NCBI GenBank assembly: GCA_030529855.1
Contig: JAUMWC010000018.1
Coordinates: 1 to 36,511, forward strand
Direction of reading: 5' to 3'
DNA length: 36,511 bases
From: Gemella sp.
GTDB taxonomy: Bacteria; Bacillota; Bacilli; Staphylococcales; Gemellaceae
Numbering within the stretch: the first letter of the stretch is position 1; every line of letters begins with the position of its first letter. Below, piece after piece: positions 6,867 through 26,826 of this stretch. Both the position numbers and the translations under genes were made by a program. The notes under the pieces were generated by a model. That model had not been told where the DNA came from and did not search any database. It saw only the letters and a list, made by a program, of their open reading frames with translations.

Positions 6867-7622
6867 TTATTTTAGTAACCAAGTATGTTTTTCCTCAAAT
6901 ATTCTTTCAGTCCAAGGATTATTTTCAAAATGTGGTATCATCCATACATAAAACATTCTGTACCCTGGAGCTGTTGCTTGGGGATGAACCAATCCTCCTG
7001 GTATATATGATGCCGAATTATTCTTAATTACAGCAGCCTCATCCCCTATAACTGAAACTCCGAAACCACTTGGATGATCAAATTTGTAAAAATATACCTC
7101 TGGTTGAGGGTGATGGTGAGGTGGATAACTATTCCATCTTCCAGTATAACTCAACACTTCACCTAGAACCATATTAGAATATGGAGCTGTTGAATAATCA
7201 AATATTGTTCTTATTATTCTCTTAGACGTCGAATCATATTCTTCTTGCCCTGCAACAATTTGATTCACATCATCTTGTCCATAGTATTTTAGTTCAAACT
7301 CTTTATCATTTTCTTTTTGCTGAACTAAGATTTCTACATCTGTAATGGCTTTAACTAAAACTTTATCTTTTTTAGAAAAATGGACACAATATGGTTTTTC
7401 TTCAAAAATATCCTTTCTTTCAACAAGATGTTTTTCATTTAAAAATTTCAATTCTACTTTCCCTGTCAAGAGTAGTACTGCACTTTCTTTCTCACCAGAA
7501 GAAATAACCAACTCTTCTCCAGATTTCAAAAGATGTACACTAACATCCATTAACATATCAGGATAAAATTCAGAATCACATATAATATTTTTACCATATT
7601 TTATATCTAGATTTTCAAACAT
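6867..7622 (-). CDS. iolB: 5-deoxy-glucuronate isomerase
   Basis: Isomerises 5-deoxy-D-glucuronate to 5-dehydro-2-deoxy-D-gluconate, the fourth step of inositol catabolism. The 251 residues form the two-cupin IolB fold (the Bacillus protein is about 271). The second half carries the metal-binding HHHPQPEVYFYKF near residues 168-180, then the conserved IPGGLVHPQATAPGY and YVWMIPH. The first 100 residues are more divergent than the catalytic half. It is the last gene of the iolDCAB unit, 10 nt after iolA, and is followed by a strong terminator. Confidence 0.95.
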   Translation of the reverse strand: MFENLDIKYGKNIICDSEFYPDMLMDVSVHLLKSGEELVISSGEKESAVLLLTGKVELKFLNEKHLVERKDIFEEKPYCVHFSKKDKVLVKAITDVEILVQQKENDKEFELKYYGQDDVNQIVAGQEEYDSTSKRIIRTIFDYSTAPYSNMVLGEVLSYTGRWNSYPPHHHPQPEVYFYKFDHPSGFGVSVIGDEAAVIKNNSASYIPGGLVHPQATAPGYRMFYVWMIPHFENNPWTERIFEEKHTWLLK

Positions 7623-7632
7623 AGTTTTTCTC

Positions 7633-9084
7633 CTAGAATTTATTTGTGCGATATTGAGCTGTTACTACTTTTTTATGAGTATAGAATTCTAAAGCATCTT
7701 TACCGTTGCAGTGTAATGTTCCGTAGAATGAATCTTTCCATCCTGAAAACGGGAACCACGCAATAGGCGCTGGTACTCCTAAGTTTATACCTAACATTCC
7801 TGCATCGATATTTTCTCTGAAGTATCTCACCGCACTTGCACTATTAGTAAATAAGCACGCTCCATTTGCAAATCTAGATTTATTTGCTAAATCTACAGCT
7901 TCTCTCAGCCCCTTAACTCTTACTACAGATACAACTGGTGCAAATATTTCATCTTTCCAAATCGTTTTTTCTGGATCAACATTATCAAATATAGTTGGCC
8001 CAACAAAATATCCTTTTTCCGGAATTCCTTCTCTACCATCTCTAATTAAAGTTGCACCTTCTTCTATACCTTTTCCTATATATCCAAATATTCTTTCTTG
8101 GGCTGCTTTATCAATTACTGGTCCTAAAAATACATCTTCAGCAAGAGCATCTCCGATAGTAATTTTATCTGATTCTTCTTTTAATCTAGCAACAAATTTA
8201 TCAGCTATCCCTTCCTCTACAGCTATTACTGCAGCTGCCATACATCTTTCTCCCGCTGATCCAAACGCTCCTCCAATAATCTTAGGCATAGCATCATCTA
8301 AATCAGCATCATTTAATACTATTAAGTGATTTTTAGCTCCAGTTAAAGCTTGAACTCTCTTAAGATGTTTAGATCCTTCTTGATAAATATATCTTCCTAC
8401 CGGCTCACTTCCTACAAACGATATACCTTTAATATTTTTACTTTCAATAATTCCATTTACTACATCTTTAGCTCCAAAGACAACGTTTAATACACCTTTT
8501 GGGAATCCTGCTTGTTCTACAAAATCAATTATTTTTTCAATTAATAAAGGTGTTTTCTCAGAAGGTTTTAATACAACTGTATTTCCTGCTGCTAATGCCA
8601 CTGGGAACATCCAAAACGGAACCATCATCGGGAAGTTAAATGGAGTTATGCACCCGATTACCCCTACAGGATATCTGTAATTACTTACTTCTACATCCGT
8701 AGCCACTGATGCTAACGAATCTCCCATATAATTATGAACTAAACCTGCTGCACTCTCAACATTTTCAATTCCTCTACCTACTTCTCCAAGAGCTTCTGTA
8801 AGATTTTTACCATGCTCTAAAGTAATAAGTCTAGCTAATTCTTCTTTATTTTCTTCCAAAATATTTTGTAATTTAAATAGTAATTTCGTTCTCTTTAGAA
8901 TTGAAGTTTTACTCCAAGTTTTGAACGTTTCTGCTGCAACTTCTGCTGCATATTCTAATTCATCTTTTGTTGATAGTGGTACTCTTGCAATTACCTCCTC
9001 AGTTGCAGGATTCGTAACATCCAGTATATCTGTACTCTTACTTTCAACCCATTCTCCATTAATATAATTTTTTAAAATTTTCAT
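7633..9084 (-). CDS. iolA: Methylmalonate/malonate-semialdehyde dehydrogenase (CoA-acylating)
   Basis: Converts malonate semialdehyde plus CoA and NAD to acetyl-CoA and CO2, the last step of the inositol pathway. At 483 residues it matches Bacillus IolA (487). Aldehyde dehydrogenase hallmarks are present: the early [25 protein letters not shown], the NAD-site [15 protein letters not shown] and GSAGERCMA with catalytic Cys281. The GERCMA context is typical of MmsA/IolA rather than other aldehyde dehydrogenases. AAAGGAG precedes the ATG. It follows iolC by 5 nt and precedes iolB by 10 nt, so it belongs to the same transcript. Confidence 0.95.
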
Positions 9085-9089
9085 ATAAA

Positions 9090-10088
9090 CTATTCTCCTT
9101 TAAAAATATTTGCTTTGATTACCGCTTCTTCTATAGCTTCGAATGTAGGTAAGTTTTCTGATGATGAATGACTACCTATATTTATCGAGGCTGCAGCACT
9201 AGCATAATGCAGTGCTTTTTCTAAACTTTCTCCTTTTAATAAACATGTTAAAAAGGCTGACCCGTGCGCATCTCCTCCACCAAAAGATTTAAGCACTTTA
9301 GCTGGATATGAAGGTGTTGAGTATTCTTCTCCTTCTTTAGAAAAGGCTACCGACCCTTTTTTACCATGTTTTATTACAACTACTTTAGAATTTTTTTCTA
9401 ACCAATAATTTGCTATTTCTTTATCTGTTAAATCACTTTGATTTAAGATAGATCCTGTAAGTTCTAACTCTTCTCTAGATCCTATTATAATATCCGAATC
9501 TCTGGCAACAACACTATAATAAATACTAATCTCATCTTTATTGGCCCAACTATATTCTCTATAATCAACATCAAAAACAACTGTTACATTGTGTTTTTTA
9601 GCAAGCATAAGCGTTTTTAAAACCGCTTCTCTTGAAGGTGAAGCTGATAATGAAGTTCCTGAAATTAAAATTATTTTAGAAGATTTAATGTACTCTTCAT
9701 CAATATCATCAACATGCAATGATAAGTCTGCTGCATTATTTCTATACATTAATATACTAGATTCCGTTTCAGATTTCATTTCAGTAAATGTTAACCCTAA
9801 ATTTTCTCTTCCTTTAGTTCTAACTATTTTCGAAACATCTACACCTTCAGAAGACAATTTACTTGTAATAAAATCCCCAAACTGATCATCAGATACTCTT
9901 CCAATAAATCCAACCCTATTCCCTAACCTTGATAATCCTATAGAAAGATTAGCGGGAGAGCCTCCTAGGTACATGTTAAATGATTTCACTTTGTCTAGTG
10001 TTCTATTCATTTCATTTGGATTTAAATCTATAGTAGCTCTTCCTACACAAATTACATCTAAATTTTTATTTTCATTTTCAAATAACAT
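9090..10088 (-). CDS. iolC: 5-dehydro-2-deoxygluconokinase
   Basis: Phosphorylates 5-dehydro-2-deoxy-D-gluconate with ATP, step five of inositol catabolism. It is a 332-residue PfkB-family sugar kinase. Visible hallmarks are GRATIDLNP at the start, the sugar-binding [17 protein letters not shown] at about 40-56, and [12 protein letters not shown] near 265-276, where the Asp of GGGDA is the catalytic base. In most PfkB kinases this motif reads GAGDxF; here a third Gly and a His are used. It is packed between iolD (10 nt) and iolA (5 nt). Confidence 0.94.
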
Positions 10089-10098
10089 ATTAACCTCC

Positions 10099-12003
10099 TT
10101 AGTATTTTCTTGCCGTACTTAATTTTTCTTCTTTTCTGTTGTAAGCCTCTAATACTTCTTTTTTATTAGAATTACTTGAAACACCCACATTCCACCAAGT
10201 ATTATATCCTGTTGTCATTGTTTTCGGTAATACCTTGATATCAATCAGTGTAGATTTATCTGATTTTCTACTTTCTTCTAATGCATTTTTTAATTCTTCT
10301 AATGTTGTTACTTTATATGTGTTAGCACCATATCCTTTAGCAACAGTAGCATAATCAACATTCATAACTTTATTATCTTTATCTCTAAATTCACAGTAGA
10401 ATGTGTCACTTCCATTCTCCATTTGAAGATTATTTATACATCCAAATCCAGAGTTATCTAATAAAATAACATTTATCTTATATCCATATTGAATTGATGT
10501 TAATAATTCAGAATGAAGCATATTAAAACTTCCATCCCCTGTTAGAGCATATACTTCTCTATCAGGTTCTGCCATTTTAACACCTAGAGCTCCGTTAACT
10601 TCATATCCCATACAAGAATATCCATATTCCATATTGTATGAATTCAAGCTATAAGAATTCCATAATTTCTGAACATCTCCAGGAATAGAACCTGCTGCCG
10701 CTACCATAACACCAGTATCTCCTATCAAATCATTAAGATTTGCTATTACACTACTTTGAGTAAGTTTAGTCCCTAAAGAATCTACATATTCATTAAAAAT
10801 TTCTTGATCAAAATGCCCATCAACTTCAGCCTTAAAACCTTCCTCGCTGAACTCTACAGTAGCCAACCTTTCTCTTTCTTCAAGCCACTCTTTTTTCAAA
10901 TCTTCTAATTCTGTATAACTTGTCTTATATCCTGATAATCTAGGCGTTATTTCCTTTAAAAATTCCTTAATATCAGCAACTACTGCTAAAGCATCAAGTT
11001 TATACGTCTGCATTCTGCTAAGATTTACATTTAAAAACTTAGCATTGTTAGAAAACTGTGTTTTTGATCCTGTTGTAAAGTCTGTATACCTAGTCCCTAA
11101 TCCGATAACTAGATCTGCTGATTGAACAACTTTATTAGCTGAACTAGTTCCTAGTATTCCATTACCACCTAAGTAATTTTTAAAATCATGTAGTAACGTA
11201 GATTTTCCTGCATGTGTTTCCACTAAAGGAATATTATACTCAAGCGATATTTTTTCTAATTCTTCTCTAGCTTCAGAATACTTAGCACCTCCACCCACAA
11301 GAAGTACAGGTCTTTTAGATTCTCTAATTAATTTTTCAGCATCTTCTAATTCTCTCTCACTAGCTCTCTTTCTATCTACATAGTGAACTCTCTTTTTGAA
11401 AAATTCTACAGGATAGTCATATGCTTCTCCCTCAACATCTTGAGATATACAGATCGTTACTGGTCCTGTTCTTTCTGGGTTTGTTAATATTTCAAAAGCT
11501 TTTATTAAACTAGACATTAGTTGCTCTGGTCTAGTTATTCTGTCCCAAAATCTAGAAACCGGTCTAAGCGTATCATTCGTTGTTAATGTTAAATCATGTT
11601 CTTGTTCAAACTGCTGTAAAACTGGATCCGGTTGCCTAGACGCAAAAGTTTCTCCTGGAATTAAAAGTAACGGTATATTATTTGCTAACGCAGTTGCTGC
11701 CGCAGTTACAAAATTAGCTGCTCCTGGCCCCACTGAACTTGTACAAGCCATTATTTTTCTTCTTTTCTTCTGTTTTGCAAATCCCATAGCAGCCAACGCC
11801 ATTGCTTGTTCATTTTTACCTTGATAAATTTTTAAAGTATATTCTTCATCCTGCAATGCTTGACCTATACCCAGCACATTACCATGACCGAAAATACTAA
11901 ATATCCCTTCTACAAATTTATCTTCTTTACCATCAAAAGAAATATATTGATTTTCTATAAATCTTATTAAAGCTTGAGCTGCAGTTAGTCTAATTGTACT
12001 CAT
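10099..12003 (-). CDS. iolD: 3D-(3,5/4)-trihydroxycyclohexane-1,2-dione acylhydrolase
   Basis: Thiamine-diphosphate enzyme that opens the ring of trihydroxycyclohexane-1,2-dione to 5-deoxyglucuronate. The 634 residues match the usual length of about 637. The N-terminal pyrimidine-binding domain has the cofactor-activating Glu65 in QGKNEQAM and then SSVGPGAANFVTAAATA. The C-terminal cofactor domain has GDGSFN near 487, about 26 residues before DNSGFG, the GDG-X(24-27)-N motif that holds the diphosphate. It is the first gene after the internal iolD promoter, with AGGAGGG before its ATG, and heads iolD-iolC-iolA-iolB. Confidence 0.96.
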   Translation of the reverse strand: MSTIRLTAAQALIRFIENQYISFDGKEDKFVEGIFSIFGHGNVLGIGQALQDEEYTLKIYQGKNEQAMALAAMGFAKQKKRRKIMACTSSVGPGAANFVTAAATALANNIPLLLIPGETFASRQPDPVLQQFEQEHDLTLTTNDTLRPVSRFWDRITRPEQLMSSLIKAFEILTNPERTGPVTICISQDVEGEAYDYPVEFFKKRVHYVDRKRASERELEDAEKLIRESKRPVLLVGGGAKYSEAREELEKISLEYNIPLVETHAGKSTLLHDFKNYLGGNGILGTSSANKVVQSADLVIGLGTRYTDFTTGSKTQFSNNAKFLNVNLSRMQTYKLDALAVVADIKEFLKEITPRLSGYKTSYTELEDLKKEWLEERERLATVEFSEEGFKAEVDGHFDQEIFNEYVDSLGTKLTQSSVIANLNDLIGDTGVMVAAAGSIPGDVQKLWNSYSLNSYNMEYGYSCMGYEVNGALGVKMAEPDREVYALTGDGSFNMLHSELLTSIQYGYKINVILLDNSGFGCINNLQMENGSDTFYCEFRDKDNKVMNVDYATVAKGYGANTYKVTTLEELKNALEESRKSDKSTLIDIKVLPKTMTTGYNTWWNVGVSSNSNKKEVLEAYNRKEEKLSTARKY

Positions 12004-12098: not shown

Positions 12099-12869
12099 TT
12101 ACCTTACCTCTATTACTTCTACACCCTTAAACTCTAGATAATCCTTCAATGCAACATCTTCCATTGCAGTTGTTATTATAGCTTTAAAATCTTCTACTTC
12201 TGCATATTTTATAAAACCACTATTATTAAATTTGCTTTCGTCGACCAACAAATAATTAACTAAACATTTACTAATTACATTACTCTTTAATTCATATTCT
12301 TCTACAGTATTATTCATGACCCCACTATCTTTTGTAACACTTGACGCAGCCATAAAAGATTTATGTATATTTATTTTATCTAATACTGTATGATTTCCTA
12401 ATTTAACAAAAGCATTTATTCTTTTCCTATAATTATTTCCACTTAATATGATATTAACATTAGGTAACTTAGCAGCTTTGTTAATTACATCTAAATTATT
12501 AGTTATTATCGTTAAATTTATATTTTTGTCAACATAATCTAAAATCCATGCAGTTGTAGTTCCAGAATCTATATATATCCTGTCTCCATCATCTATATAT
12601 TTTGCTGCTTTTTCTGCAATTATTTTTTTCTGGGTAATATTTAATATATTTCTCTTATTAACATCTACTAATACTTCTTCTTCATCTAAATCTCTAATAG
12701 ATTCTACTCCACCATATACTTTAATTATATTTCCTTTATCTAACAAAGTTTTCACATATCTTCTAACAGTATTCATAGACAAATCAAAGTTTTTTTCTAA
12801 TTCTTTTAATGATACTTTCTTTTTCTTATGTATATATTTCTCGACTGCATCTATTCTTTTCGATTTCAT
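12099..12869 (-). CDS. iolR: DeoR-family repressor of the inositol cluster
   Basis: 256-residue DeoR/GlpR-type regulator. The winged helix-turn-helix occupies residues 1-60, with KVSLKELEKNFDLSMNTVRR as the helix-turn-helix and YGGVE closing the wing. The C-terminal sugar-phosphate sensor domain carries DSGTTTAWIL near 100 and a late LLVDESKF, as in DeoR proteins that respond to phosphorylated intermediates. In Bacillus the IolR inducer is 2-deoxy-5-keto-D-gluconate 6-phosphate, the IolC product; the same is plausible here. It sits between iolG2 and iolD on the same strand, and three promoters of the cluster carry matching tandem 11-mer operators, which supports the assignment. Confidence 0.88.
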   Translation of the reverse strand: MKSKRIDAVEKYIHKKKKVSLKELEKNFDLSMNTVRRYVKTLLDKGNIIKVYGGVESIRDLDEEEVLVDVNKRNILNITQKKIIAEKAAKYIDDGDRIYIDSGTTTAWILDYVDKNINLTIITNNLDVINKAAKLPNVNIILSGNNYRKRINAFVKLGNHTVLDKINIHKSFMAASSVTKDSGVMNNTVEEYELKSNVISKCLVNYLLVDESKFNNSGFIKYAEVEDFKAIITTAMEDVALKDYLEFKGVEVIEVR

Positions 12870-12940: not shown

Positions 12941-13939
12941 TTAGATTTCTATAATTGTATTTTTTTCTAATGATTCTTTACATTTTAAACATACTTTAGT
13001 TGCCACTAATGCATCTTTGGCAGTAACTTTTGGCTTTAAATCCTCTTTTATACATTTCACAAAATCAGATATTTCACTTATAAACGCCTTTTCAAATCTT
13101 TCCGGGAAATTTCTTGAACATTCTCTTCTTACTCCAGACGAATCATATATAGTTACCAAATTTTTCTCTGGAACTGGAGCAATTCTTATCCACCCTTTGG
13201 TTCCCATAATTTCTGTTTCTACTTGATATCCATGCGGAGCATTTCTTCCTGCTACTAAATGTACCATTATATTATTATCCATAACACCTTGAACAATACC
13301 AGTCTCCAACTCTCCAACTTCGTCTAGTTCTTTTTTAGCAAAATTCGAACCAAAAGCCCAAACTTGTTTGAATTCTCTACCAGTTAACCACCTTATCGCA
13401 TCTACATCATGTATAGCCATATCATGGTATATACCACCACTGTTGCTGTTTTTGGCAAATTTTACAAATGATTCTAAACCATCTGCAGGATCTATTCCAT
13501 AGGCTCTGATATAAGTTATTTCTCCAATACTTCCACTATCAATAATTTCTTTAGCATAAGCGTAATCTTCATCAAATCTTCTCATAAATCCTACTTGAAA
13601 TTTAACATTTTTATCATCAACATCAAGTATTCTTTCGATATCTTCTACTCTTATACCTAGCGGTTTTTCTGCAAATGTATGAACTCCCTTGTCTATTGCA
13701 TATCTAACCATAGTAGGTCTGTCTTCTGCAGATGCCGCTATAATAACCATATCTAAACCGGCATTATCAATCATTTCTTCAAACGAAGTATACCCTTCAA
13801 TACCATTACTCCTGTAATATTCTAGCTCCGATTCAACAACACTGCACACAGCTGTTAGTTTAACATCAGAAATTTTTTTCAAATTATTAATATGAGTAGA
13901 ACCCATTCTTCCTAGACCTACGACTCCTACCTTTAGCAT
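12941..13939 (-). CDS. Second inositol 2-dehydrogenase-like oxidoreductase (Gfo/Idh/MocA)
   Basis: 332-residue NAD(P)-dependent dehydrogenase. The Rossmann motif GLGRMGSTH begins at residue 8 and EKPLG at 91-95 carries the catalytic Lys92. YHDMAIHDVD at 171-180 supplies Asp173 and His177, the full Lys/Asp/His set of inositol dehydrogenases. FMRRFDEDY near 118-126 is the motif shared with IolG. It differs enough from the neighbouring iolG to be a functional paralogue, perhaps for scyllo- or D-chiro-inositol as Bacillus IolX, IolW or IolG relatives do; the substrate is inferred only. It lies 28 nt after iolG in the iolE-iolG-iolG2 unit. Confidence 0.85.
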   Translation of the reverse strand: MLKVGVVGLGRMGSTHINNLKKISDVKLTAVCSVVESELEYYRSNGIEGYTSFEEMIDNAGLDMVIIAASAEDRPTMVRYAIDKGVHTFAEKPLGIRVEDIERILDVDDKNVKFQVGFMRRFDEDYAYAKEIIDSGSIGEITYIRAYGIDPADGLESFVKFAKNSNSGGIYHDMAIHDVDAIRWLTGREFKQVWAFGSNFAKKELDEVGELETGIVQGVMDNNIMVHLVAGRNAPHGYQVETEIMGTKGWIRIAPVPEKNLVTIYDSSGVRRECSRNFPERFEKAFISEISDFVKCIKEDLKPKVTAKDALVATKVCLKCKESLEKNTIIEI

Positions 13940-13967: not shown

Positions 13968-14999
13968 TTATTTGAAATTTTTGTAGAATTCTGGTTTCTC
14001 TATTAACTTGATTTCTTCTGTTTTTCCTGTTTCTTGCGACTTAATACAAGCGTCAGCTGTGACTGCAGCAGTATAACCATCCCATGTACTTGGTCCTGCT
14101 AACTCTAAACCATTATTTAATCTATCAGCTATATCTTGGAACTCAACATCATAAGCAGCTATAAATCTTTCTTTCCAATCTGTTAAAATATCTGTACTTC
14201 TCTTAGCACCTTTACTTAATACTACACTAGGAACCGCTGGTAATTGAGCCATTCCTAACTCTCCTACTACATCACAATGAATATCATATCCATAAGCATT
14301 TACAAAAACTTCTGTAACAATATTTACACCCGATTCTGTTTCTAAAACAATAAGTTGAGGATCTTGTAATGGTGTATCATACTCTTCTGTAACTGCAGCT
14401 CTTCTAGGGAAATATACTTTTGCAGTTTTATATTCTTCTCCTAGTAACCAGTGCACAATTTCTATCTCATGTATGAATGTTTCTACTATAGCTTGTGAAC
14501 TAACATAATTTTTAGGTTGAGATAAATATGTATTATAGTGACGGCAGTGAAGCATTAACGGCTTACCTATTTCTCCATTATCAATATATTCTTTTAATTT
14601 AATATATCCTGGATCATATCTTCTCATAAACCCTACTTGAAGCATTCTCTTACCAGTTTTTTCCTCTGCTCTAAGAACCTCTAAACACTCTTCTTCTGTC
14701 ATAGCAAGTGGTTTCTCAACAAAGACATATTTGTTATTATTAAGCGCAGCTATTGCTACTTCTGCGTGTAATTGATTAATGGCTGTTACTACAACTAAAT
14801 CAACATTATCACTAGCTACTAAATCTTGGTATGAAGAAAAATCTTCAGCATTAAGATTATATTTTTTAATTAAATCTTTACCTTTGTTCTCTACTATATC
14901 ATATACTCCTGTAACCTCCATACCAGAAACTCTATTTTGAATTCTGTTTAAATGATCTTCTCCAATTTTACCTAAACCTACTATTCCTACTCTGATCAT
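13968..14999 (-). CDS. iolG: myo-Inositol 2-dehydrogenase
   Basis: Oxidises myo-inositol to scyllo-inosose with NAD, the first step of the pathway. The 343 residues are a Gfo/Idh/MocA protein: GLGKIGEDH at 8-16, EKPLAM with catalytic Lys96, FMRRYDPGY at 124-132 and IHEIEIVHWLLG with His177. The position four residues before that His, Asp172 in the Bacillus enzyme as I remember it, is Glu173 here (VETFIHE), and the next conserved Asp is Glu180. The overall motif pattern still favours IolG. It lies 31 nt after iolE and 28 nt before the second dehydrogenase. Confidence 0.88.
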   Translation of the reverse strand: MIRVGIVGLGKIGEDHLNRIQNRVSGMEVTGVYDIVENKGKDLIKKYNLNAEDFSSYQDLVASDNVDLVVVTAINQLHAEVAIAALNNNKYVFVEKPLAMTEEECLEVLRAEEKTGKRMLQVGFMRRYDPGYIKLKEYIDNGEIGKPLMLHCRHYNTYLSQPKNYVSSQAIVETFIHEIEIVHWLLGEEYKTAKVYFPRRAAVTEEYDTPLQDPQLIVLETESGVNIVTEVFVNAYGYDIHCDVVGELGMAQLPAVPSVVLSKGAKRSTDILTDWKERFIAAYDVEFQDIADRLNNGLELAGPSTWDGYTAAVTADACIKSQETGKTEEIKLIEKPEFYKNFK

Positions 15000-15030: not shown

Positions 15031-15933
15031 TTAGTTATATTTTCTTAATCCTTGCATATAATTAAACCCTTTTATAGCATATTCTAAAGGATTCGCAATC
15101 TCTGGGTCTTGTTCTGCTTCTACTACTATCCATCCACTATATCCTATCTCTAGTAAGAAATCATAGACTTCTTGATAATCAATACATCCATCACCAGGGA
15201 CAGTGAATATTCCATGTAAGAAGGAATTTAAAAAACTCATATTCCCCTTTTCTGCTTCCTCTAATTTTTCTTTCCTTACATCTTTAAAATGAACATGCCC
15301 TATTCTATCTTTCAACTCCGTCAACAACTTCATATATTCTTTATCTGAAACATAAATATGTCCTGTATCATATAATAGATAGACTTTATCAGGTTCTGTA
15401 AGATCCATTAATTTTTTTGTTTCTTCGAATGTTTGGATACCTGTTCCCATGTGATGGTGATAGCACAATTTCAATCCACGTTCATTAGCGATTTCTCCTA
15501 AAATATTTAGACCTTCAGCTAGGATTTTAAACTCTTCTTCAGTATATATCGGTTTTTCTGTATATACACAAACATCTCTCAAACCTTGAATACTTCCACT
15601 TTGTTCAGAATATACAGCAACATCAGCCCCTACTGCTTGTAGGAAATCACAATGTTTTATAAACTCTTCTTTAGTGTTCTCTAATCCTTTATCAATTAAA
15701 TATCCACTAAACCACTGTGCAGCTATCCTCATATTCCTTAAAGATAATTCTTTATTTAATTCTACAGGATCTGTCGGATAACATCCCCCAACTTCAGTTC
15801 CTTCAAAACCTACCAATTTAGCATCACTTAATATTTGTTTATAGGTATTTTCTTTTCCTATCTCTGGAATATCATCATTTCTCCATCCAATAGGGGCAAT
15901 ACCATATTTAATTCTCGTTACTTCGTAAGACAT
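15031..15933 (-). CDS. iolE: Inosose (2-keto-myo-inositol) dehydratase
   Basis: Removes water from scyllo-inosose to give trihydroxycyclohexane-1,2-dione, the second step of inositol catabolism. The 300 residues match Bacillus IolE (297). The N-terminal [16 protein letters not shown] is characteristic of Iol[21 protein letters not shown] and HVHFKDVR are the metal-binding TIM-barrel strands shared with xylose-isomerase-like proteins. AAGGAGG precedes the ATG. It is the first gene of the minus-strand unit and is divergent from the symporter. Confidence 0.94.
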
Positions 15934-15990: not shown

Positions 15991-16020
15991 ATTATATATT
16001 ACCCACTAAAGCGTTGTCAA
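15991..16020 (-). promoter_or_regulatory. iolE promoter with overlapping cre-like site
   Basis: TTGACA (16015-16020) and TATAAT (15991-15996) are 18 bp apart on the minus strand. CTAAAGCGTTGTCA (16006-16019) overlaps the -35 and has two mismatches to the cre consensus. Confidence 0.68.
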
Positions 16021-16147: not shown

Positions 16148-16183
16148 AGAAAGCGTTGACATTTTATTTTTTTAGTATATTAT
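16148..16183 (+). promoter_or_regulatory. Symporter promoter with overlapping cre site
   Basis: TTGACA (16156-16161) and TATTAT (16178-16183) are 16 bp apart. AGAAAGCGTTGACA (16148-16161) fits the cre consensus WGWAANCGNTNNCW at every position and covers the -35, as expected for CcpA repression. Confidence 0.75.
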
Positions 16184-16279: not shown

Positions 16280-17872
16280 ATGGGTCTGTTTTCTATAATT
16301 TCATTTATCACAATTATAGTAGGAGTAGCTCTATTCGCTTACAAAAAAAGTAGAGCTGTCGATTCAACTAACGAAGAGGGTTATTTCCTTGGCGGTCGAA
16401 GTTTAGGAGGATTTGCTATCGCTTCTACTATTATTATGACTAACTTATCTACCGAACAAATAGTTGGTCAAAACGCTCAATCATTTAGAGTTGGTATGGA
16501 AACAATGGCTTGGGAAGTTACATCTGGTCTTGCCTGTGTTCTTCTAGCATTAGTATTCTTACCAAGATACTTCAAATATGGTATAAACACTGTATCAGAC
16601 TTCATAGAAGTACGCTACGATACTATGACTAAGCGAATTGTTTCTGTTCTATTCATTTTCGCTTATGTTATTTCATTCTTACCAGTTGTACTTTACTCTG
16701 GTGCTTTAGTATTCAACCAAATATTCAAAGTTGATAAATTATTAGGAATTTCTACAAGTGCATCTATAGTACTTATTTCATTCTTTATAGGAACAATCGG
16801 TATTCTTTACTTATTCTTAGGTGGAATGAGATTAGGAGCCTACAGTGATATAGTTTATGGATTTGGATTAATTGTTGGAGGACTTTCTATACCAGTCATC
16901 GGACTTATCATGTTAGGTAATGGTAGTTTCTTTGGAGGTTTAAATTATGTAGTTGAACATAGCCCTGAAAAACTTAATGCTATCGGAGCTATTGATTCTC
17001 CAATCGTTCCATGGCCTACACTATTCCTAGGTATGATGTTCAATAACCTATTCTTCTGGTGTACTAACCAAATGATCGTTCAAAAAGCACTTGCTGGTAA
17101 AAACTTAAAAGAAGCACAAAAAGGTGCTCTTATAGTTGGATTCTTCAAAATCTTCGGTGCATTATTCCTTGTATTCCCAGGAATCTTAGCATATAATATG
17201 GTTGGAGATCAAATAACTAACCCTGACTCTGCTTACCCTACATTGATCACTCATATTTTACCTGAGTGGGCTCTAGGAATATTCGGTGCAGTAATTTTCG
17301 GAGCAATCCTATCTTCATTCGTAGGATCACTAAGTTCTACAGCAACATTATTTACATTAGACTTATACAAACCAATTTTCGGAGCTAACAAAACATCTAA
17401 ACAAGTTGCAAAAACAGGTCGTACAGTTACAATCATTATAGGAGCTGCAGTTACTCTAATCGCTCCACTAATCGCATTATTCCCACAAGGATTATATCAA
17501 GTTGTTCAAGAATTCAATGGTATCTACAACATGCCACTTCTTGTTCTAATCTTAGCAGGATTCTTTGTTAAACGTGTTTCTAGTTTAGGAGCTAAAGTTA
17601 CTTTCTTAGTTCACATCGTTCTTTACGGATTATCTAAAGTATTCCTTGCTGATATTCACTTCTTATATGTACTAAGTGGATTATTCTTCCTAGACTTACT
17701 TGTACTATTAGGATTCAGTAAGTACTCTACAACTAAAGCATTTAACTTTGAAGAATTTAATAGCGGACTTGATTTAAAACCTTGGAAGCACCGTCACATC
17801 GTTAGTGCTGCCGTTATAATCGCAATGCTTGCTACGTATGTATTATTCTCACCTTGGGGATTAGCTAAATAA
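16280..17872 (+). CDS. Sodium/solute symporter (SSS family), probable inositol importer
   Basis: 530-residue integral membrane protein with about 13-14 hydrophobic segments and a short lysine/arginine cytoplasmic end. YFLGGRSLGG near residue 36, IIMTNLSTEQIVGQNAQSFR at about 51-70 and the loop with NTVSDFIEVRYD are typical of the SSS family (sodium/glucose and sodium/inositol symporter relatives). AAGGAGG precedes the ATG. It heads a plus-strand unit divergent from iolE, with cre and IolR-like sites in its leader, so inositol is the likely substrate; mammalian sodium/inositol transporters belong to the same superfamily. It replaces the MFS transporter IolT/IolF of Bacillus. Two PTS proteins follow it 22 nt downstream. 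Confidence 0.87.
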   Translation: MGLFSIISFITIIVGVALFAYKKSRAVDSTNEEGYFLGGRSLGGFAIASTIIMTNLSTEQIVGQNAQSFRVGMETMAWEVTSGLACVLLALVFLPRYFKYGINTVSDFIEVRYDTMTKRIVSVLFIFAYVISFLPVVLYSGALVFNQIFKVDKLLGISTSASIVLISFFIGTIGILYLFLGGMRLGAYSDIVYGFGLIVGGLSIPVIGLIMLGNGSFFGGLNYVVEHSPEKLNAIGAIDSPIVPWPTLFLGMMFNNLFFWCTNQMIVQKALAGKNLKEAQKGALIVGFFKIFGALFLVFPGILAYNMVGDQITNPDSAYPTLITHILPEWALGIFGAVIFGAILSSFVGSLSSTATLFTLDLYKPIFGANKTSKQVAKTGRTVTIIIGAAVTLIAPLIALFPQGLYQVVQEFNGIYNMPLLVLILAGFFVKRVSSLGAKVTFLVHIVLYGLSKVFLADIHFLYVLSGLFFLDLLVLLGFSKYSTTKAFNFEEFNSGLDLKPWKHRHIVSAAVIIAMLATYVLFSPWGLAK

Positions 17873-17894
17873 TTTATTACAAAGGAGATAATTT

Positions 17895-18194
17895 ATGGTA
17901 AAAATACTTTTAGTATGTAACGCAGGAATTTCTAATACTGTATTACTAAATCACGTGAAAGAAGAAGCTGAAAAAAAAGGGAATATTTGTGAAGTTAAAT
18001 CTAGCACTGTTGCAAATGTCACTGACAACATTTCAAGTGCAGATGTAGTGCTACTTGCTCCACAAGTAGCGTTCGAAAGAGATGCTATATCAAAATTAAC
18101 TACAGTTCCTGTAGAAGTCATTTCAACTGAAGCTTACGCAAATCTTGATGGACTTGCAGTTACTGAATACGCATTAAAATTAGCTAAAAAATAA
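17895..18194 (+). CDS. PTS lactose/cellobiose-type IIB protein, orphan
   Basis: 99-residue stand-alone IIB domain. LLVCNAGISNT at residues 5-15 is the phosphocysteine P-loop, with Cys8 as the phosphate acceptor; VLLAPQVAFE near 53-62 is the conserved second strand. Residues normally needed for phosphotransfer are intact. In a normal PTS this protein passes phosphate from IIA to a sugar carried by IIC, but no IIC is present; the gene upstream is a sodium symporter. AAAGGAG precedes the ATG, and the stop codon overlaps the start of the IIA gene (TAATG). A regulatory role linked to the symporter or to IolR is possible but unproven. Confidence 0.88.
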   Translation: MVKILLVCNAGISNTVLLNHVKEEAEKKGNICEVKSSTVANVTDNISSADVVLLAPQVAFERDAISKLTTVPVEVISTEAYANLDGLAVTEYALKLAKK

Positions 18195-18490
18195 TGAAAC
18201 TTACTTCAATGAAGTTAATCGCTCACGTCGGAGAAGCTAAATCTAAATATATGTCCGCAATATCTAAGGCTAAAGAATCAAAATTTGAAGAAGCTGAAGC
18301 CTTGTGTTCAGAAGGAGATTTAGCTTTCAACCGTGGCCATAAAGTACATCAAGAATTATTAACTAGAATGGCTAGTGGGGAAAAATTAGATATAGATTTA
18401 CTTCTTATTCATTCCGAAGATCAGCTTATGTCTACAGAAGTTTTTAGAACTCTCTCTAGAGAATTCATAGATTTATACAAACGAATATAA
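18194..18490 (+). CDS. PTS lactose/cellobiose-type IIA protein, orphan
   Basis: 98-residue helical IIA protein of the Lac family, which would receive phosphate from HPr. LLLIHSEDQLMST at 69-81 aligns with the LLxVHAQDHLM site: His73 matches the phosphorylated His78 and Asp76 the metal-binding Asp of the trimer axis, but the second His (His82) is Gln77 here. Its ATG shares one base with the IIB stop (TAATG), giving translational coupling in a IIB-then-IIA order. It is the last gene before a strong terminator. It should be phosphorylatable, yet there is no membrane IIC to use the phosphate. Confidence 0.87.
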   Translation: MKLTSMKLIAHVGEAKSKYMSAISKAKESKFEEAEALCSEGDLAFNRGHKVHQELLTRMASGEKLDIDLLLIHSEDQLMSTEVFRTLSREFIDLYKRI

Positions 18491-18493
18491 AGA

Positions 18494-18524
18494 AAAAGCC
18501 AAGATATTAAGTATCTTGGCTTTT
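18494..18524 (+). terminator. Terminator of the symporter-IIB-IIA operon
   Basis: A 13-bp stem, AAAAGCCAAGATA with TATCTTGGCTTTT, around a 5-nt loop and continuing TTTTATTCTTCTTT. Confidence 0.9.
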
Positions 18525-20584: not shown

Positions 20585-23500
20585 CTATTTCTTCTTAGAT
20601 TTTTTATTTTTTTGCACTCTTGGTGCCAAATCTAAGTTCCAAGATTGCTCTTCTTTAGAAGCTATCTCTTGAAAATAATTATTCTTTGCTGCTTTAGCTT
20701 TAGGTGTAGAGATAGCTGATGCTGCAGCTTTTACATCCTTAGCTACCTTCGTTGCTTCCGCTGGTGCTGGTCTAGATGTACCGTAAATAGCAGAAACCAC
20801 TTGAGTTGGTTTATATTTATCTACTCTCACTGGAGATGTTATTTTTTGTTGTACATATTCTGTTGTGTTTTTTCTAGGTATCTTCACATTAGAATACTTA
20901 TCAAAAATAGCGTCTAATTTCTTTTGCTTCTCTTCAATTGTTGTTCTAGATACTGGTCTATATCCTCTATCTTGAGTCTTATATTCTCCAAATGTTAGAG
21001 GCGCATCTTCTGTTACAAAGTATTCATCTACATCATTTGTATATAATTTTTCTTCGTACTCAATACCTCTCGGTTTTTCTGCTTGGAATTTTTTAGCCAT
21101 AGACTCTTGTCTTGCATAATCATAAGAAGCAGTTGTGCTAGTAGAAGATATAGCTTCAGAAGCTGGTGATGTAGTAGCTTTTTCTTCTACTGAATTATTC
21201 TTAACTCCCCAGTATTGAGATCTGTATTCATCAATTTTCTTCTGCTTCAACTCTCTATTAAGAGCTTCTATATCCACTTGATCAGACTTGTACTCTATTT
21301 CATTTTGAGTTTCTAATTCATAGATTTCTTCTTCATCTAAATCATAATCTGAGTAATACTCATCTTCAGCATATTCATCAGCATGACGTAAGTCTTCATA
21401 AGATTCAAATTTATATTCACTTTCTTTAGCTACTTTCTCAATAGAAATTTCTTCTTCAAATCCTATAGATAAATCATCTTCTAAATCTCTTGAAACTCTT
21501 TCTCTAACCTTATCTTCTTTGATTAATTCTAAGTTTTCTTCCAACATAGTGATTTCTTCTAATTTTTTTTCATTAGATTTCTCTACTATGTTTGTTTCTA
21601 AGATTAAATTATCTAAGTTACTTCTCTCTCTACTAGAAACTAAATCTTGTGATGTTTTGTCCTTGAATAAACCTTTTCTTAAGTTTTCGATTTCTTCTGG
21701 ATGTGGTTCATCCGATGTATTTACATCAAATTTCTTACGCTCAATATCTGTTGCTAAAACATCTTCATTTCCAGATAACACGTCATCTAGTGAAGTATAA
21801 CTTAACTTAGATCTTCTAACTGGCGCTCCGTCTGATTCTTCTACTTCAATAGTGTAATCACGTGTATCTCTACTGATTTCTTCTTGAGTAGACTTGATGT
21901 TTTCCATAACACTTTCAATCTTATCACTATCTCTATCTCTTAAGAAGTTTTCTGAGTTAGAAATTTTATCTTGTTTTCTGTCTAATCTATTGAAGTCATT
22001 ATTTAATCTATCTATTTCTTCTTGGTTCTTAGATTCGTGAATATTTTCAACTACAACTTCTTCAACTTGTTCTTCTGATTCTTTTGCAATACTCTTAGCA
22101 AATCTATCTTTTCCATTAGATAAACTTAAATCATATGCTATTTCATCAATCTCTTTTTCTTGAAGTATTCTTCTAACTTTTACAGAAGCTAAAGTAGGGT
22201 GAACTCTACGTTCTCTTTCTTCTTTTGGACTTCTTTCTTCAAATACATCTACCGATTTAATTTGATCCGCTTCGATTCCGAATGAACGTAAACTTTCTTG
22301 AAGACTAATGTTTTCTTCTTCCTCTGGATCGATTTCTTTTTCTTCAACAAGATCTAACTTGTCAGCTATAGATGGTTCTTCTTCTACATACTCTATTTCG
22401 TATTCCTCATCTTCTGATTTATCAGATTTATTTATAAATCTTCCAAAGAATCCTTCTTTTTTAGCTGGTTTTTCTTCTTGAACTTCTTCTTCATAATCGT
22501 AGTCATAATCTAGTTCTTCATCTTGATCATAATCTAACTCTTCTTCTTTTTCCGACTTATTAAATTTATTACTAAATTTATCTTTCACTGATGCAAAGAA
22601 TTCTTTTCCAGATGGTCTTGGAGCTAAATCTTTTTCTAACTCTAGATCCTCTTCAACATATTCTACTTCTAAATCAAAATCATCATACTCATCTTGTTTT
22701 TGTTTAGCTTCTTGTTTTTGACGCTCAAGATATGTTTTGTAGTCTTCTGCTTCATCATCTTCTGATTCTTCTTCATAATCATATTCTGAACCTGCAGACT
22801 TATCTTTAGTTTTGAATAATGCTGTAACTTTATTTAAGCAAGATTCTTTTTTAACAGGCTCTTTCTCTACTACAAGTTCTTCTTCAACTTCTTCATAGAT
22901 TTCTTCTTTATCAACCTCAAGATCTTCTGACTCTTCTTGCTCATAATCATATTCGTCTTTATCGTTTCCAGTGAATCTCTCTTTTAGACTTGCAAATGAG
23001 AAACGAGATTTCTTAGATTTTTCTTCCTTAGTTTCTTCTAAATCTAAATCATCATACAAGTCATCTTCTGACTCTTCATATACTTCTTCCTTGTTTTCTT
23101 TTTTCTTAAAGAATGAGAAGCGCGATTCCTTCTCTTGAGTTTCTTCTAACTCTAAGTCATCATAGATATCTTCTTCTACATCTGTAAATGTTTCTTCATC
23201 GTATTCTTCATAACTATCATCTTCGTATAGTTCTTCTTTAGTTTCTTTTTTCTTAAAGAATGAGAAATTCGATTCTTCTTTCTTAGTTTCTTCTAAGTCT
23301 AAATCATCGTATAAATCATCTTCTGATTCTTCATATACTTCTTCTTTGCTTTCTTTTTTCTTAAAGAATGAGAAACCTGACTTCGTAGCTTTCTTCTCTT
23401 CTCTCAGACCTAACTCTCTCTCTAAGTCTGCATATTCATCTTCTTCATCAAAGATTTCATCTTCGTATAAATCTTCTTTTTCGGCTTTCTTCTTAAAGAA

Positions 23501-24166
23501 TGAGAAACCGGATTTCTTTTCTTTCTTCTCTTCTAGTTCGAACTCTTCTTCTAAGTCGTCCTCAAAGATTTCGTCTTCAAATTCATCTTCTTTAACTTCT
23601 TTTTTCTTGAAGAATGAGAAGCCGGATTTCTTTTCTTTCTTCTCTTCTAGATCGAAATCATCGTATAGATCATCTTCAAAGATTTCTTCTTCTGATAAGT
23701 CTTCTTTTTCGGCTTTCTTCTTGAAGAATGAGAAACGTGATTTTTTATTTTCCTGTGTTTCTTCTAATTCCAACTCATCTACATCTGTAAATTCATCTTC
23801 TTCATAAACATCTTCTTCTTTTTTACTGAAGAATGATCTTGACTTCTCAGTTCTTTCAGCAGCTTCTTTTAATTCTTCTTCTAAAGCCGCTTGATAGTCA
23901 TCTTCTTCATAGTAGTCTTCTAATTCGTCTTCTTCAAATTTATTAACAGATTTTAAGTTACTAATTCTTGATATCTTTTCGCTAACCGAATTTTTTGGTT
24001 TTGATGAATTTAATTCCGCCTCTAACGCAGCATAGTATTCCTCTTCATCGTCATATCCTTCTACTACTTCTTCTTCGAATAACTTGCTTCTTTTTTTCTT
24101 TTTAGATTTTGATGATTCTTCTACTTCATCATAATCTTCCTCAAATAATTTTTTCCAATTTACCAT
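20585..24166 (-). CDS. Large acidic low-complexity repeat protein, unknown function
   Basis: 1193 residues, extremely rich in Glu, Asp and Lys, with no signal peptide or membrane segment, so cytoplasmic and probably largely disordered. Residues about 20-400 hold repeats in which a short aromatic-basic patch, FSFFKKK (six exact copies), alternates with acidic strings such as EEVYEESEDDLYDDLDLEET. Degenerate versions occur on both sides (KKLFEED at the N-terminus, RSFFSKK, EFFASVKDKF, GFFGRFINK). The middle has charged, coiled-coil-like stretches; the C-terminus is more ordered, with KYKPTQVVSAIYGTSRP and a basic tail KNKKSKKK. It starts 15 nt after ytpR. In Bacillus and Staphylococcus the gene after ytpR is sftA, an FtsK-type translocase with an acidic N-terminal region; no FtsK motor is present here. 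I do not recognise the protein. Confidence 0.85.
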   Translation of the reverse strand: MVNWKKLFEEDYDEVEESSKSKKKKRSKLFEEEVVEGYDDEEEYYAALEAELNSSKPKNSVSEKISRISNLKSVNKFEEDELEDYYEEDDYQAALEEELKEAAERTEKSRSFFSKKEEDVYEEDEFTDVDELELEETQENKKSRFSFFKKKAEKEDLSEEEIFEDDLYDDFDLEEKKEKKSGFSFFKKKEVKEDEFEDEIFEDDLEEEFELEEKKEKKSGFSFFKKKAEKEDLYEDEIFDEEDEYADLERELGLREEKKATKSGFSFFKKKESKEEVYEESEDDLYDDLDLEETKKEESNFSFFKKKETKEELYEDDSYEEYDEETFTDVEEDIYDDLELEETQEKESRFSFFKKKENKEEVYEESEDDLYDDLDLEETKEEKSKKSRFSFASLKERFTGNDKDEYDYEQEESEDLEVDKEEIYEEVEEELVVEKEPVKKESCLNKVTALFKTKDKSAGSEYDYEEESEDDEAEDYKTYLERQKQEAKQKQDEYDDFDLEVEYVEEDLELEKDLAPRPSGKEFFASVKDKFSNKFNKSEKEEELDYDQDEELDYDYDYEEEVQEEKPAKKEGFFGRFINKSDKSEDEEYEIEYVEEEPSIADKLDLVEEKEIDPEEEENISLQESLRSFGIEADQIKSVDVFEERSPKEERERRVHPTLASVKVRRILQEKEIDEIAYDLSLSNGKDRFAKSIAKESEEQVEEVVVENIHESKNQEEIDRLNNDFNRLDRKQDKISNSENFLRDRDSDKIESVMENIKSTQEEISRDTRDYTIEVEESDGAPVRRSKLSYTSLDDVLSGNEDVLATDIERKKFDVNTSDEPHPEEIENLRKGLFKDKTSQDLVSSRERSNLDNLILETNIVEKSNEKKLEEITMLEENLELIKEDKVRERVSRDLEDDLSIGFEEEISIEKVAKESEYKFESYEDLRHADEYAEDEYYSDYDLDEEEIYELETQNEIEYKSDQVDIEALNRELKQKKIDEYRSQYWGVKNNSVEEKATTSPASEAISSTSTTASYDYARQESMAKKFQAEKPRGIEYEEKLYTNDVDEYFVTEDAPLTFGEYKTQDRGYRPVSRTTIEEKQKKLDAIFDKYSNVKIPRKNTTEYVQQKITSPVRVDKYKPTQVVSAIYGTSRPAPAEATKVAKDVKAAASAISTPKAKAAKNNYFQEIASKEEQSWNLDLAPRVQKNKKSKKK

Positions 24167-25278: not shown

Positions 25279-26826
25279 ATGCTTAAAAATTTACTTATTA
25301 AAATTTTTATTTTTATATTTACACTTGTCAGTGTAGCAACATTTACACCCTATAATATCGCACTTTCTTCATCAGCAAAAACTTACATTGTTCCCATAAA
25401 ACTCTCTAGTTTCTCTACAATTAGCGGAGCCTTACCTAAAAATATAGCCCTAATAAAAACCGCAATAATCAAGGAAGATAAGGATACATCTTCCATCACC
25501 CTTTCATTAGAAACAAAAGAGAATACCAATAATCCTAACTATATTTTAGATATAGCAATCTATGATAACAACCAACTTAAATCAGGAAAATTTTTCTATC
25601 GTTACTTTGATGAAAAATCCAAAACCTATATTCATCAAGTACAATTCGAAAGAAAATCTCAAAAAGAAAGTCAGATAAAAGTTAATATTTTATCAAACGA
25701 GAAAACAGAATCTTCTGATGTTGTAATACAGATAGATTGGTCAAAAGCAAAAACATTAAATACAAAAAAATTTGCTGATAATGTACCTGCCGACTCAGAG
25801 AAAGTAGAAAATATAAAAACATCAATAAATACTAATAAAAAAATTCTTACTCCTAATTCTATACATACCAACTCTAACTTAAATAATCAACCTAAACAAA
25901 CATCCATACCAACAGATATACCTACTAATCCAGCTAAGATGCAGGACTATATCAATTACTACAATAATATTAAAGCTAGACCTACCCCGCCGCAGGTTAG
26001 TACCACAAGTATTACTACAACTACTACTGGTAAGATTGAAGAAAATCCCGAAGATACTCTAGATGAAAATAAAGATAGTAAGAAAAAAGATGATAAACCA
26101 ATCCTAAGGTCAGTCTCAGATTTCTTTTCATCAAATACTGCGACAAAATCAGCTGGTTCTTATATTGTAGAAATATCTTCAAACCATCTAAATCCCCTAA
26201 CCGGTAAACTCGCTAACGAAAATTCTAAAGATAAAGACCTTATAAAACTTCTAAGCAGAAACATCATTACACCAAGTATAGAAAATAGTACTAATCTTAA
26301 AGAAATACTAAGACAAGAAATAGACACTAGCGAGAAAAGTTGGGCAAGGGCTGGACTTGATAAAAAAGGAGATAAACTTTACGCAACAGTAAGATTACAT
26401 CTTATAAACCATATAACTAGGTCTCAAGAAGAAGGTCCCTTCTTTAAAGTTTTAAAAGAAAATGGACAGTATGAATTAGTTACCTCTACTGAATCACACC
26501 TAAATATTAATAAAGATGGTGATTCTTACGCCGACTACACTTTCGAAGTACCTAGAGAAAACTTTTCTGCAATGGTGCAGGTAAATGTAGAATCTATGAA
26601 CAAGACCATAAACTTCTTTATAGAATCAAATCCTAGAAGTATAAAAAAAGGAACTATGTCTAACGCAGAACAGAGCAAGTCTCAACCTGCTAGTCCTTTA
26701 TTAAAAACTATTATCCTTGCCCTTGTTCTACTTCTTGTGATAATCATCCCTCTTCTAGTAATCAGAAGAAAAAGGCAACTAGAAGAAGATGAGTACGAAG
26801 AGTATGATAATGAAGATGAGGATTAG
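25279..26826 (+). CDS. Membrane-anchored surface protein with two possible NEAT-like domains
   Basis: 515 residues. The N-terminus has a signal peptide (hydrophobic to about residue 31). A first beta-rich domain spans about 35-160, opening TYIVPIKLSS and closing VVIQIDWSKA; a Thr/Asn/Pro-rich linker follows (about 165-290, with a run of threonines). A second domain, about 295-455, opens SYIVEISSNH and closes YTFEVPRENFSAMVQVNVES. The openings and closings resemble divergent NEAT (haem-binding) domains, but I do not see the tyrosine pair of haem binders, so this is tentative. The C-terminus has one membrane helix (LLKTIILALVLLLVIIIPLL), RRKR and a strongly acidic cytoplasmic tail; there is no LPXTG. 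GGAGG precedes the ATG. Confidence 0.72.
   Translation: MLKNLLIKIFIFIFTLVSVATFTPYNIALSSSAKTYIVPIKLSSFSTISGALPKNIALIKTAIIKEDKDTSSITLSLETKENTNNPNYILDIAIYDNNQLKSGKFFYRYFDEKSKTYIHQVQFERKSQKESQIKVNILSNEKTESSDVVIQIDWSKAKTLNTKKFADNVPADSEKVENIKTSINTNKKILTPNSIHTNSNLNNQPKQTSIPTDIPTNPAKMQDYINYYNNIKARPTPPQVSTTSITTTTTGKIEENPEDTLDENKDSKKKDDKPILRSVSDFFSSNTATKSAGSYIVEISSNHLNPLTGKLANENSKDKDLIKLLSRNIITPSIENSTNLKEILRQEIDTSEKSWARAGLDKKGDKLYATVRLHLINHITRSQEEGPFFKVLKENGQYELVTSTESHLNINKDGDSYADYTFEVPRENFSAMVQVNVESMNKTINFFIESNPRSIKKGTMSNAEQSKSQPASPLLKTIILALVLLLVIIIPLLVIRRKRQLEEDEYEEYDNEDED

Follow-up and report, generated by a model that had tools for sequence, protein, structure and literature searches.

A predicted Na+/inositol symporter encoded with a lactose-type PTS IIB/IIA pair that lacks its own IIC in Gemella inositol loci

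Introduction

Control of non-PTS importers by the phosphoenolpyruvate-dependent phosphotransferase system (PTS) is known mainly through IIA-Glc, HPr(Ser-P) and the domain carried by LacS. Here we analyse a locus of Gemella sp. in which a gene for an SSS-family sodium symporter, predicted to import inositol, is followed by genes for IIB and IIA proteins of the lactose/cellobiose (Lac) type, beside a cluster of inositol utilisation (iol) genes. It lies on contig JAUMWC010000018.1 of assembly GCA_030529855.1, of which positions 1 to 36,511 were analysed as one stretch of DNA, referred to as the window. We propose, with a probability of roughly 0.55, that the IIA/IIB pair is a phosphorelay that regulates the predicted symporter according to PTS load.

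Several described systems share features with this locus. LacS of streptococci and lactobacilli, a GPH symporter with an IIA-Glc-like domain, is a secondary sugar importer under PTS phosphorylation control, a form of regulation that we propose here from genes. The present symporter differs in belonging to the SSS family, in having separate Lac-family proteins as its PTS parts, and in having IIB rather than a fused IIA as its conserved partner; across its 530 residues PF00474 is the only Pfam match, with no fused IIA-Glc-like domain. In inducer exclusion (LacY, MalFGK) a soluble PTS protein likewise acts on a non-PTS permease, and the portion of a review cited here describes the binding of IIA-Glc to such permeases as phosphorylation-dependent (PMC10710835). 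Binding is in our case proposed from genes, and unlike IIA-Glc, which belongs to another family and serves many permeases, the IIB and IIA are encoded in the permease's own operon. In SbtA-SbtB a small cytoplasmic signalling protein holds a Na+-coupled importer, labelled SSS in that portion of the review; however, SbtB is a PII protein acting in its AMP-bound form, whereas IIB is a PTS phosphocarrier. Finally, the lactose and cellobiose PTSs (CelABC, ChbABC, LacEF) have the same IIA (PF02255) and IIB (PF02302) families with His and Cys kept, but here there is no IIC (TIGR00410) and the IIB loop reads GIS[AN] instead of GMST.

Inositol utilisation itself has been studied in Enterococcus faecalis OG1RF, which has an iol operon and loses inositol fermentation in iolB and iolG2 transposon mutants, as given in section 11 of PMC2530867; excerpts of two other papers link the operon with the use of inositol by strains of E. 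faecalis (PMC4374294, PMC2680900). Downstream of the OG1RF operon, the 2008 paper draws a gene, OG1RF_0166, as a 'probable PTS IIC component', and its section 11 neither discusses the function of this gene nor calls it an IIB. The initial annotation knew of no described system like the present one in an inositol locus; with a PTS gene already drawn next to an iol operon, the arrangement is not wholly new. In the portion of an iol survey consulted, the main text contains neither 'PTS' nor 'symporter' (PMC9430895). For Geobacillus, an excerpt of PMC13130090 reports that repression of iol genes by ribose acts via Crh and CcpA, a route that is transcriptional and does not need the relay considered here. 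No described SSS-IIB or iol-IIB system was recognised in the literature covered, which comprised mostly titles and abstract openings, with few subscription journals.

Results and discussion

Symporter, IIB and IIA genes form one predicted operon

The genes and the terminator lie where the initial annotation placed them, and the window holds no IIC (PF02378):

16280-17872, plus strand: SSS-family Na+/solute symporter, predicted inositol importer, 530 residues (PF00474, E 2.9e-49)
17895-18194, plus strand: Lac/cellobiose-type PTS IIB, 99 residues, with Cys8 and loop CNAGISN (PF02302, E 4.6e-15)
18194-18490, plus strand: Lac/cellobiose-type PTS IIA, 98 residues, with His73 (PF02255, E 3.7e-30)
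18494-18524, plus strand: intrinsic terminator directly 3' of the IIA gene, with a 14-pair stem and a T run

All three proteins score above their Pfam cut-offs (SSF, PTS_IIB, PTS_IIA). The symporter also passes the curated NCBIfam model PRK10484, at 667 bits against a cut-off of 401 and covering residues 3-527, while the IIB falls short of its NCBIfam subfamily cut-off (59.9 vs 110 bits). The 22 bases between symporter and IIB genes contain the ribosome-binding-site-like stretch AAAGGAG, and the IIB stop and IIA start overlap by one base (TAATG). From this spacing and the terminator it follows that the three genes are probably co-transcribed.

Alignment with solved proteins confirms that the residues expected of such a relay are intact: Cys8 of IIB falls on the Cys of ChbB/CelA and His73 of IIA on the His of IIA-Lac/Cel proteins, residues that we take to be catalytic. 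His73 does not vary in alignments A1 and A4, and is found in all six aligned Gemella-type IIAs. The proteins thus have the IIA (PF02255 with His) and IIB (PF02302 with Cys) of an Enzyme II-Lac. PF02255 is the sole Pfam match of the IIA, with no sign of the Glc-family IIA involved in inducer exclusion. The initial annotation also pointed to a second IIA His replaced by Gln. The Gln is present, but it is no sign of IIC loss or of a signalling role, as it occurs in 81 of 81 IIA relatives (collected by a two-pattern scan, one pattern of which itself requires Gln), 42 of them with a Lac-type IIC in the same locus.

No matching IIC is found in the genome

The genome of the window (G000; G, L, P, f and g numbers are our own handles) has an assembly of 1,610,897 bases that is 96.74% complete. 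It holds eight PF02378 IICs, six of the Glc superfamily and two mannitol-type. No Lac/Cel-type model is among the NCBIfam hits of these eight proteins (E <= 1e-50), which are typed as glucose/maltose, N-acetylglucosamine, sucrose, trehalose and beta-glucoside IIBC, one IIBC for an unknown sugar, and two mannitol IICs. A Lac/Cel IIC query, itself scoring above the TIGR00410 lacE cut-off, had no match in G000 at E <= 1. Over 15 Gemellaceae genomes the same query found a single place, in G012, beside a second, LacF-like IIA, which serves as a positive control; it found no Lac-type IIC in G011. A matching IIC elsewhere would have argued against the initial annotation. Since none of the eight PF02378 IICs is Lac-type, no lacE/cello-family IIC was found in the operon or the rest of the G000 assembly, at its stated completeness. 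Searching G000 for PF02255 proteins gave the window IIA and no other.

The operon is conserved in Gemella

Of the 15 Gemellaceae genomes, 13 are at least 90% complete. The IIA was matched in four (G000, G010, G011, G012) and the symporter in three (G000, G011, G012); neither was matched in nine genomes of another genus or in the incomplete genomes G013 and G014. G011 and G012 repeat the arrangement of the window, with symporter, IIB and IIA in that order and iolE divergent, at identities to the window proteins of 77-79% (symporter), 39-43% (IIB) and 49-52% (IIA). The content of iol block and trio is kept across the three genomes although the flanks differ: in G011 there is a frame that we take to be a transposase, in G012 a long region with no recognisable proteins, taken for rRNA, and in G000 an AlbA_2-domain gene. 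In Gemella sp. GL1 (G010, L019:6417-8297) a shortened fbp frame is joined to the 3' half of IIB, the IIA is intact, and symporter and iol genes are gone, leaving a rearrangement scar.

IIB accompanies the symporter in inositol clusters of Lactobacillales

A symporter search over 398 genomes of the class gave 52 genomes at E <= 1e-120, 17 of them above 740 bits. Ten of these 17 symporters lie in iol clusters (G000, G393, G260, G271, G188, G254, G091, G116, G127 and G400), and IIB stands beside the symporter in five of the ten (G000, G091, G116, G127 and G400). The occurrence of orthologous symporters inside iol clusters of several families supports the prediction of an inositol importer. For G079, G162, G151, G233, G348, G313 and G357 no iol gene was present in the stretch seen (1.5 kb on each side, except for G079).

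We next searched 395 genomes of the order to which G091 belongs with profile A6, built from Gemella and Lactobacillales IIBs; the order is taken as Lactobacillales from the NCBI names of matched proteins (Vagococcus, Enterococcus, Carnobacterium). At E <= 1e-12 the profile matched 307 of the 395 genomes, mostly far more weakly than the top ranks. Scores run from 143.6 down to 102.8 bits for ranks 1-22 and drop to 92.9 at rank 23. The top 22 IIBs all lie behind the symporter, 11 directly and 11 after one intervening dehydrogenase gene. Among the following eight loci, five have a Lac-type IIC, two have neither, and one (G706) lies behind a symporter in the order iolG, iolE, symporter, dehydrogenase, IIB, IIA (opposite strand), iolB, iolC, iolD, aldolase-like, iolA. 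Loci were examined to rank 30, and further divergent members may exist lower. Together with G706, the three Gemella genomes and one more genome with symporter and IIB (G769), the 22 make a total of 27 genomes in five families (f1, f7, f36, f48 and f50).

All 27 loci were read by one procedure, in stretches of 4.4 to 36.5 kb. IIB adjoins the symporter or sits one gene away in every genome, other iol genes stand beside the pair in 27 of 27 stretches, and a Lac-type IIC was seen in none of these stretches. This amounts to a partial run of the census proposed in the initial annotation, and all 27 genomes with an iol-type IIB have symporter and IIB, with or without IIA, in an iol cluster. The proposed trio had to be refined: contiguous symporter-IIB-IIA has so far been seen in Gemella only (three genomes), and elsewhere the partner of the symporter is IIB alone. 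With IIB alone conserved beside the symporter outside Gemella, the relay probably acts through IIB and not through IIA. Of the 27 stretches, those of the three Gemella genomes and of G706 are the only ones with an IIA gene.

The pathway genes are nearly always in view. IolC is present in all 27 stretches, counting the window, apart from L107, where the stretch read ends at iolD; IolE in all except the 4.4-kb contig L248 (G471); and IolD in all except that contig, L231 (G475) and L247 (G495). The two latter carry iolA, iolB, iolC, iolE, symporter, dehydrogenase and IIB, and iolD was not seen in the stretch.

Queried with the E. faecalis protein P0062, the 22 genomes of genus g146 gave ten with an iol-type IIB, of which nine are among the genomes above. 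In nine of these ten the symporter-IIB end abuts S10-operon ribosomal protein genes, a recurrent site (L184-L188, L191, L193, L194 and L227). P0062 itself is named 'IIC' by NCBI and is a 107-residue iol-type IIB; we infer that it is OG1RF_0166. It matches the TIGR00853 IIB model, below the model cut-off. Proteins P0030, P0032, P0043, P0045, P0062, P0063, P0065 and P0072 carry the NCBI name 'PTS cellobiose transporter subunit IIC', yet they have 101-107 residues and PF02302 (IIB). A standing misannotation is thereby exposed, with 'IIC' given, in many cases by NCBI, to IIB proteins of about 100 residues.

The iol-type IIBs share an altered loop

A set of 28 iol-type IIBs was compared, comprising 26 with the symporter in view (the 22, G706 and three Gemella) and the metagenome proteins P0026 and P0027 of unknown context. 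In both clades the Cys is kept (28/28), followed in all by the loop CxxGI[ST][AN]. GMST occurs in none of the 28; in ordinary IIBs it is found in 75 of 79, and GI in 0 of 79. Outside this count, the G769 IIB reads CEAGISA and P0062 reads CETGISA. In alignments with solved structures the loop falls on CSAGMST of ChbB, which presumably binds the phosphate. The Cys is kept despite overall divergence, the window IIB being only 23-24% identical to Lactobacillales IIBs in a seven-row alignment.

In a symporter tree of 26 rows, some of them partial, the Gemella symporters group with f2, an IIB-free family of the same order (99/99), and the Lactobacillales form a separate clade (100/98). The IIB link therefore needs two gains or losses on this tree, as forced by the starred branches, and a single change suffices in 0% of 200 bootstrap trees. 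In the IIB tree the Gemella proteins form one clade and those of Lactobacillales another, distinct one (100/100 each). IIB may thus have been recruited twice, or lost in the f2 line, or transferred.

Candidate sources of phosphate for the IIB

PF02255 is found in 26 of 26 genomes tested with an iol-type IIB, G769 being outside the count. Six genomes have a single PF02255 protein, encoded inside the iol cluster in G000, G011 and G706 and elsewhere in G091, G127 and G475. No Lac-type IIC lies near the sole IIA of the latter three, in stretches of 11 kb. The sole Lac-type IIA of G091 has a SemiSWEET-like gene (PF03083; L228:5036-5768) as a neighbour. Within 50 kb of IIB on the same contig, no PF02255 gene was found in the 22 Lactobacillales genomes, where IIB lies near the contig end in G427 and G471.

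We considered the rule that a dedicated IIA occurs only where the genome lacks another. It is partly supported, in that G000, G011 and G706 fit, and is contradicted by G012, which has the second, LacF-like IIA, and by G091, G127 and G475, whose single IIA lies elsewhere. A general link of this IIA branch with SSS proteins was rejected: the symporter query, run over 98 loci and the window, matched only the window's three copies, and a symporter is present in 0 of the 80 IIA-relative loci.

A proposed switch on the symporter, and its rivals

The linkage and conservation are firm, and their simplest reading is a PTS-dependent switch on the symporter. Phosphoryl groups would pass from phosphoenolpyruvate via EI and HPr to His73 of IIA and then to Cys8 of IIB. 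In operons with IIB alone, the phosphate would come from an IIA whose gene lies at another place in the genome. The GI[ST][AN] loop would fit an IIB that is still phosphorylated without handing the phosphate on to an IIC-bound sugar. While PTS sugars are consumed, IIB in one of its two states would bind the symporter from the cytoplasm and reduce the uptake of inositol. The signalling role put forward in the initial annotation is in part upheld by this comparison: a relay without its own IIC lies in an iol locus with its catalytic residues kept.

More tentatively, these loci could define PTS-coupled symporters of a class of their own, in which a Na+-driven SSS importer is switched directly by the PEP-derived cysteine phosphate on its own soluble IIB (with or without IIA), which replaces the IIC-based permease. 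If so, it would be, to our knowledge, the first SSS importer wired to the PTS, and an IIB freed from IIC to become the operon partner of a symporter would be a new output of the PTS relay. It would explain how inositol uptake could rank below PTS sugars at the level of transport, and the IIB link would possibly have been acquired twice and kept across at least three families of iol-positive Lactobacillales. The set occurs in cultivable, manipulable lactic acid bacteria, so that these ideas are directly testable.

Several observations weigh against a switch of this kind. The orthologous, iol-linked symporters of G393, G260, G188, G254 and G271 have no IIB in 19-kb stretches, so transport does not depend on the relay. 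In 24 of the 27 genomes no IIA is contiguous with the pair, and the IIA of G706, within the cluster, is on the opposite strand; the finding of an IIA in all 26 genomes tested may simply reflect how common IIA is. GMST is retained by the IIC-less Erysipelotrichaceae IIBs among the ordinary proteins, so the lack of a nearby IIC does not by itself account for the loop change. A single joint IIB clade is neither shown nor rejected (approximately unbiased test, p 0.415; 103 columns, loop included, with long branches). Finally, few symporter residues distinguish IIB-linked from IIB-free members; they form no clear docking patch, and such shared residues were too few to be taken as a docking site.

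Among other explanations, it is unlikely that transcription or an iol enzyme is the target of the relay, with phospho-IIB or IIA modifying the DeoR-family regulator or a dehydrogenase. A DeoR-family regulator does accompany the iol genes in 22 of 27 stretches, the remaining five being truncated or lacking it, and a dehydrogenase gene separates symporter and IIB in half of the top 22 Lactobacillales loci. However, the DeoR-family protein of the window has DeoR HTH (helix-turn-helix), DeoRC and general HTH matches in Pfam and no PRD or other PTS-target domain. The conserved neighbour of IIB is the symporter, with no intervening dehydrogenase in the other 11 loci or in Gemella.

We consider it distinctly improbable that IIA and IIB are ordinary PTS parts serving an IIC elsewhere and share the operon by chance. 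Lac-type IIB/IIA can serve an IIC encoded elsewhere, as PtcA/PtcB of Lactococcus do, a Lac-type IIC lies within 5 kb in 42 of the 80 IIA-relative loci, and it counts for this explanation that the genome-wide IIC search covered Gemellaceae and not the Lactobacillales genomes. Yet G000 and G011 have no Lac-type IIC, unless the missing few per cent of their assemblies hide one, and chance fails to explain the 22/22 linkage or the loop common to 28 iol-type IIBs.

Group translocation, in which phospho-IIB would phosphorylate inositol or another polyol leaving a symporter that stands in the place of IIC, seems very unlikely. The relay residues are kept, IIC is absent and the genes are tightly linked, as it would require. 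The iol pathway starts from free inositol, though, and nearly all 27 stretches keep the enzymes IolC, IolE and IolD; the IIB loop also departs from its ordinary form, and IIB-free orthologues of the symporter serve the same pathway. Least credible is that IIA and IIB are decaying leftovers of a lost PTS, for although the Gemella IIBs are far less alike than the symporters (39-43% vs 77-79% for the window against G011 and G012) and the GL1 locus is a scar with half an IIB and an intact IIA, Cys8, His73 and the GIS of the loop are invariant despite the divergence, the reading frames are open, and at GL1 one rearrangement took out symporter and iol genes in the same event.

The iol cluster and a shared promoter motif

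Divergent from the symporter, on the minus strand, the iol genes run as iolE, two iolG-like genes, a DeoR-family regulator, iolD, iolC, iolA and iolB:

15031-15933, minus strand: iolE, myo-inosose-2 dehydratase (TIGR04379, above cut-off)
13968-14999, minus strand: iolG-like inositol dehydrogenase 1 (GFO_IDH_MocA; best NCBIfam model NF052679, 430 bits, below its cut-off of 540)
12941-13939, minus strand: iolG-like inositol dehydrogenase 2 (TIGR04380, 302 bits, below its cut-off of 355)
12099-12869, minus strand: DeoR-family regulator of the iol cluster, possible IolR (PF00455/PF08220; no NCBIfam model above cut-off)
10099-12003, minus strand: iolD (TIGR04377, above cut-off)
9090-10088, minus strand: iolC, 5-dehydro-2-deoxygluconokinase (TIGR04382, above cut-off)
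7633-9084, minus strand: iolA, methylmalonate-semialdehyde dehydrogenase type (TIGR01722, above cut-off)
6867-7622, minus strand: iolB (PF04962, KduI/IolB)

The initial annotation spoke of IolR; a DeoR-family protein does lie in the iol operon, but no NCBIfam model names it IolR. Between the divergent operons the following promoter-like and operator-like sites were seen:

16156-16183, plus strand: promoter-like TTGACA-16-TATTAT for symporter-IIB-IIA (11 of 12 consensus positions)
15991-16020, minus strand: promoter-like TTGACA-18-TATAAT for the iolE operon (12 of 12 consensus positions)
16151-16161, plus strand: operator-like AARCGTTGWCA at the -35 box of the symporter promoter (same layout in L107 and L108)
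16009-16019, plus strand: operator-like AARCGTTGWCA at the -35 box of the iolE promoter (same layout in L107 and L108)

Promoter-like sites are not in excess across the region (not above the mean of shuffles), so the regulatory argument rests on the motif. AARCGTTGWCA was derived from the same three Gemella loci in which it was counted (window, L107 and L108), and it has exactly two copies in each, all intergenic and at both divergent -35 boxes, against a chance expectation of 0.01-0.04 per locus. This suggests shared control of the two operons, with CcpA or the DeoR-family protein as candidate binders.

Other loci and genes

Fifteen of the 80 IIA-relative loci have transketolase and IIB genes with no Lac-type IIC within 5 kb, and many of these contigs end close by. 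One Erysipelotrichaceae locus (L090:7080-11048) encodes a MarR-like regulator (below the Pfam cut-off), IIB, IIA, a HAD hydrolase and a split transketolase (N and C parts); similar operons of this family, some with two IIBs, are possibly another IIC-less relay. At L086:7657-9216, and at L091, where it is cut by the contig end, genes for a Lac-type IIB and an IIA are followed within a few bases by one for a Mem_trans permease (PF03547) in the place of IIC. In the window itself, 20585-24166 (minus strand) encodes a 1193-residue protein without a Pfam match, a relative of which adjoins the IIA in Gemella sp. GL1, and 25279-26826 (plus strand) encodes a protein with a Shp-type heme-binding domain (PF11545).

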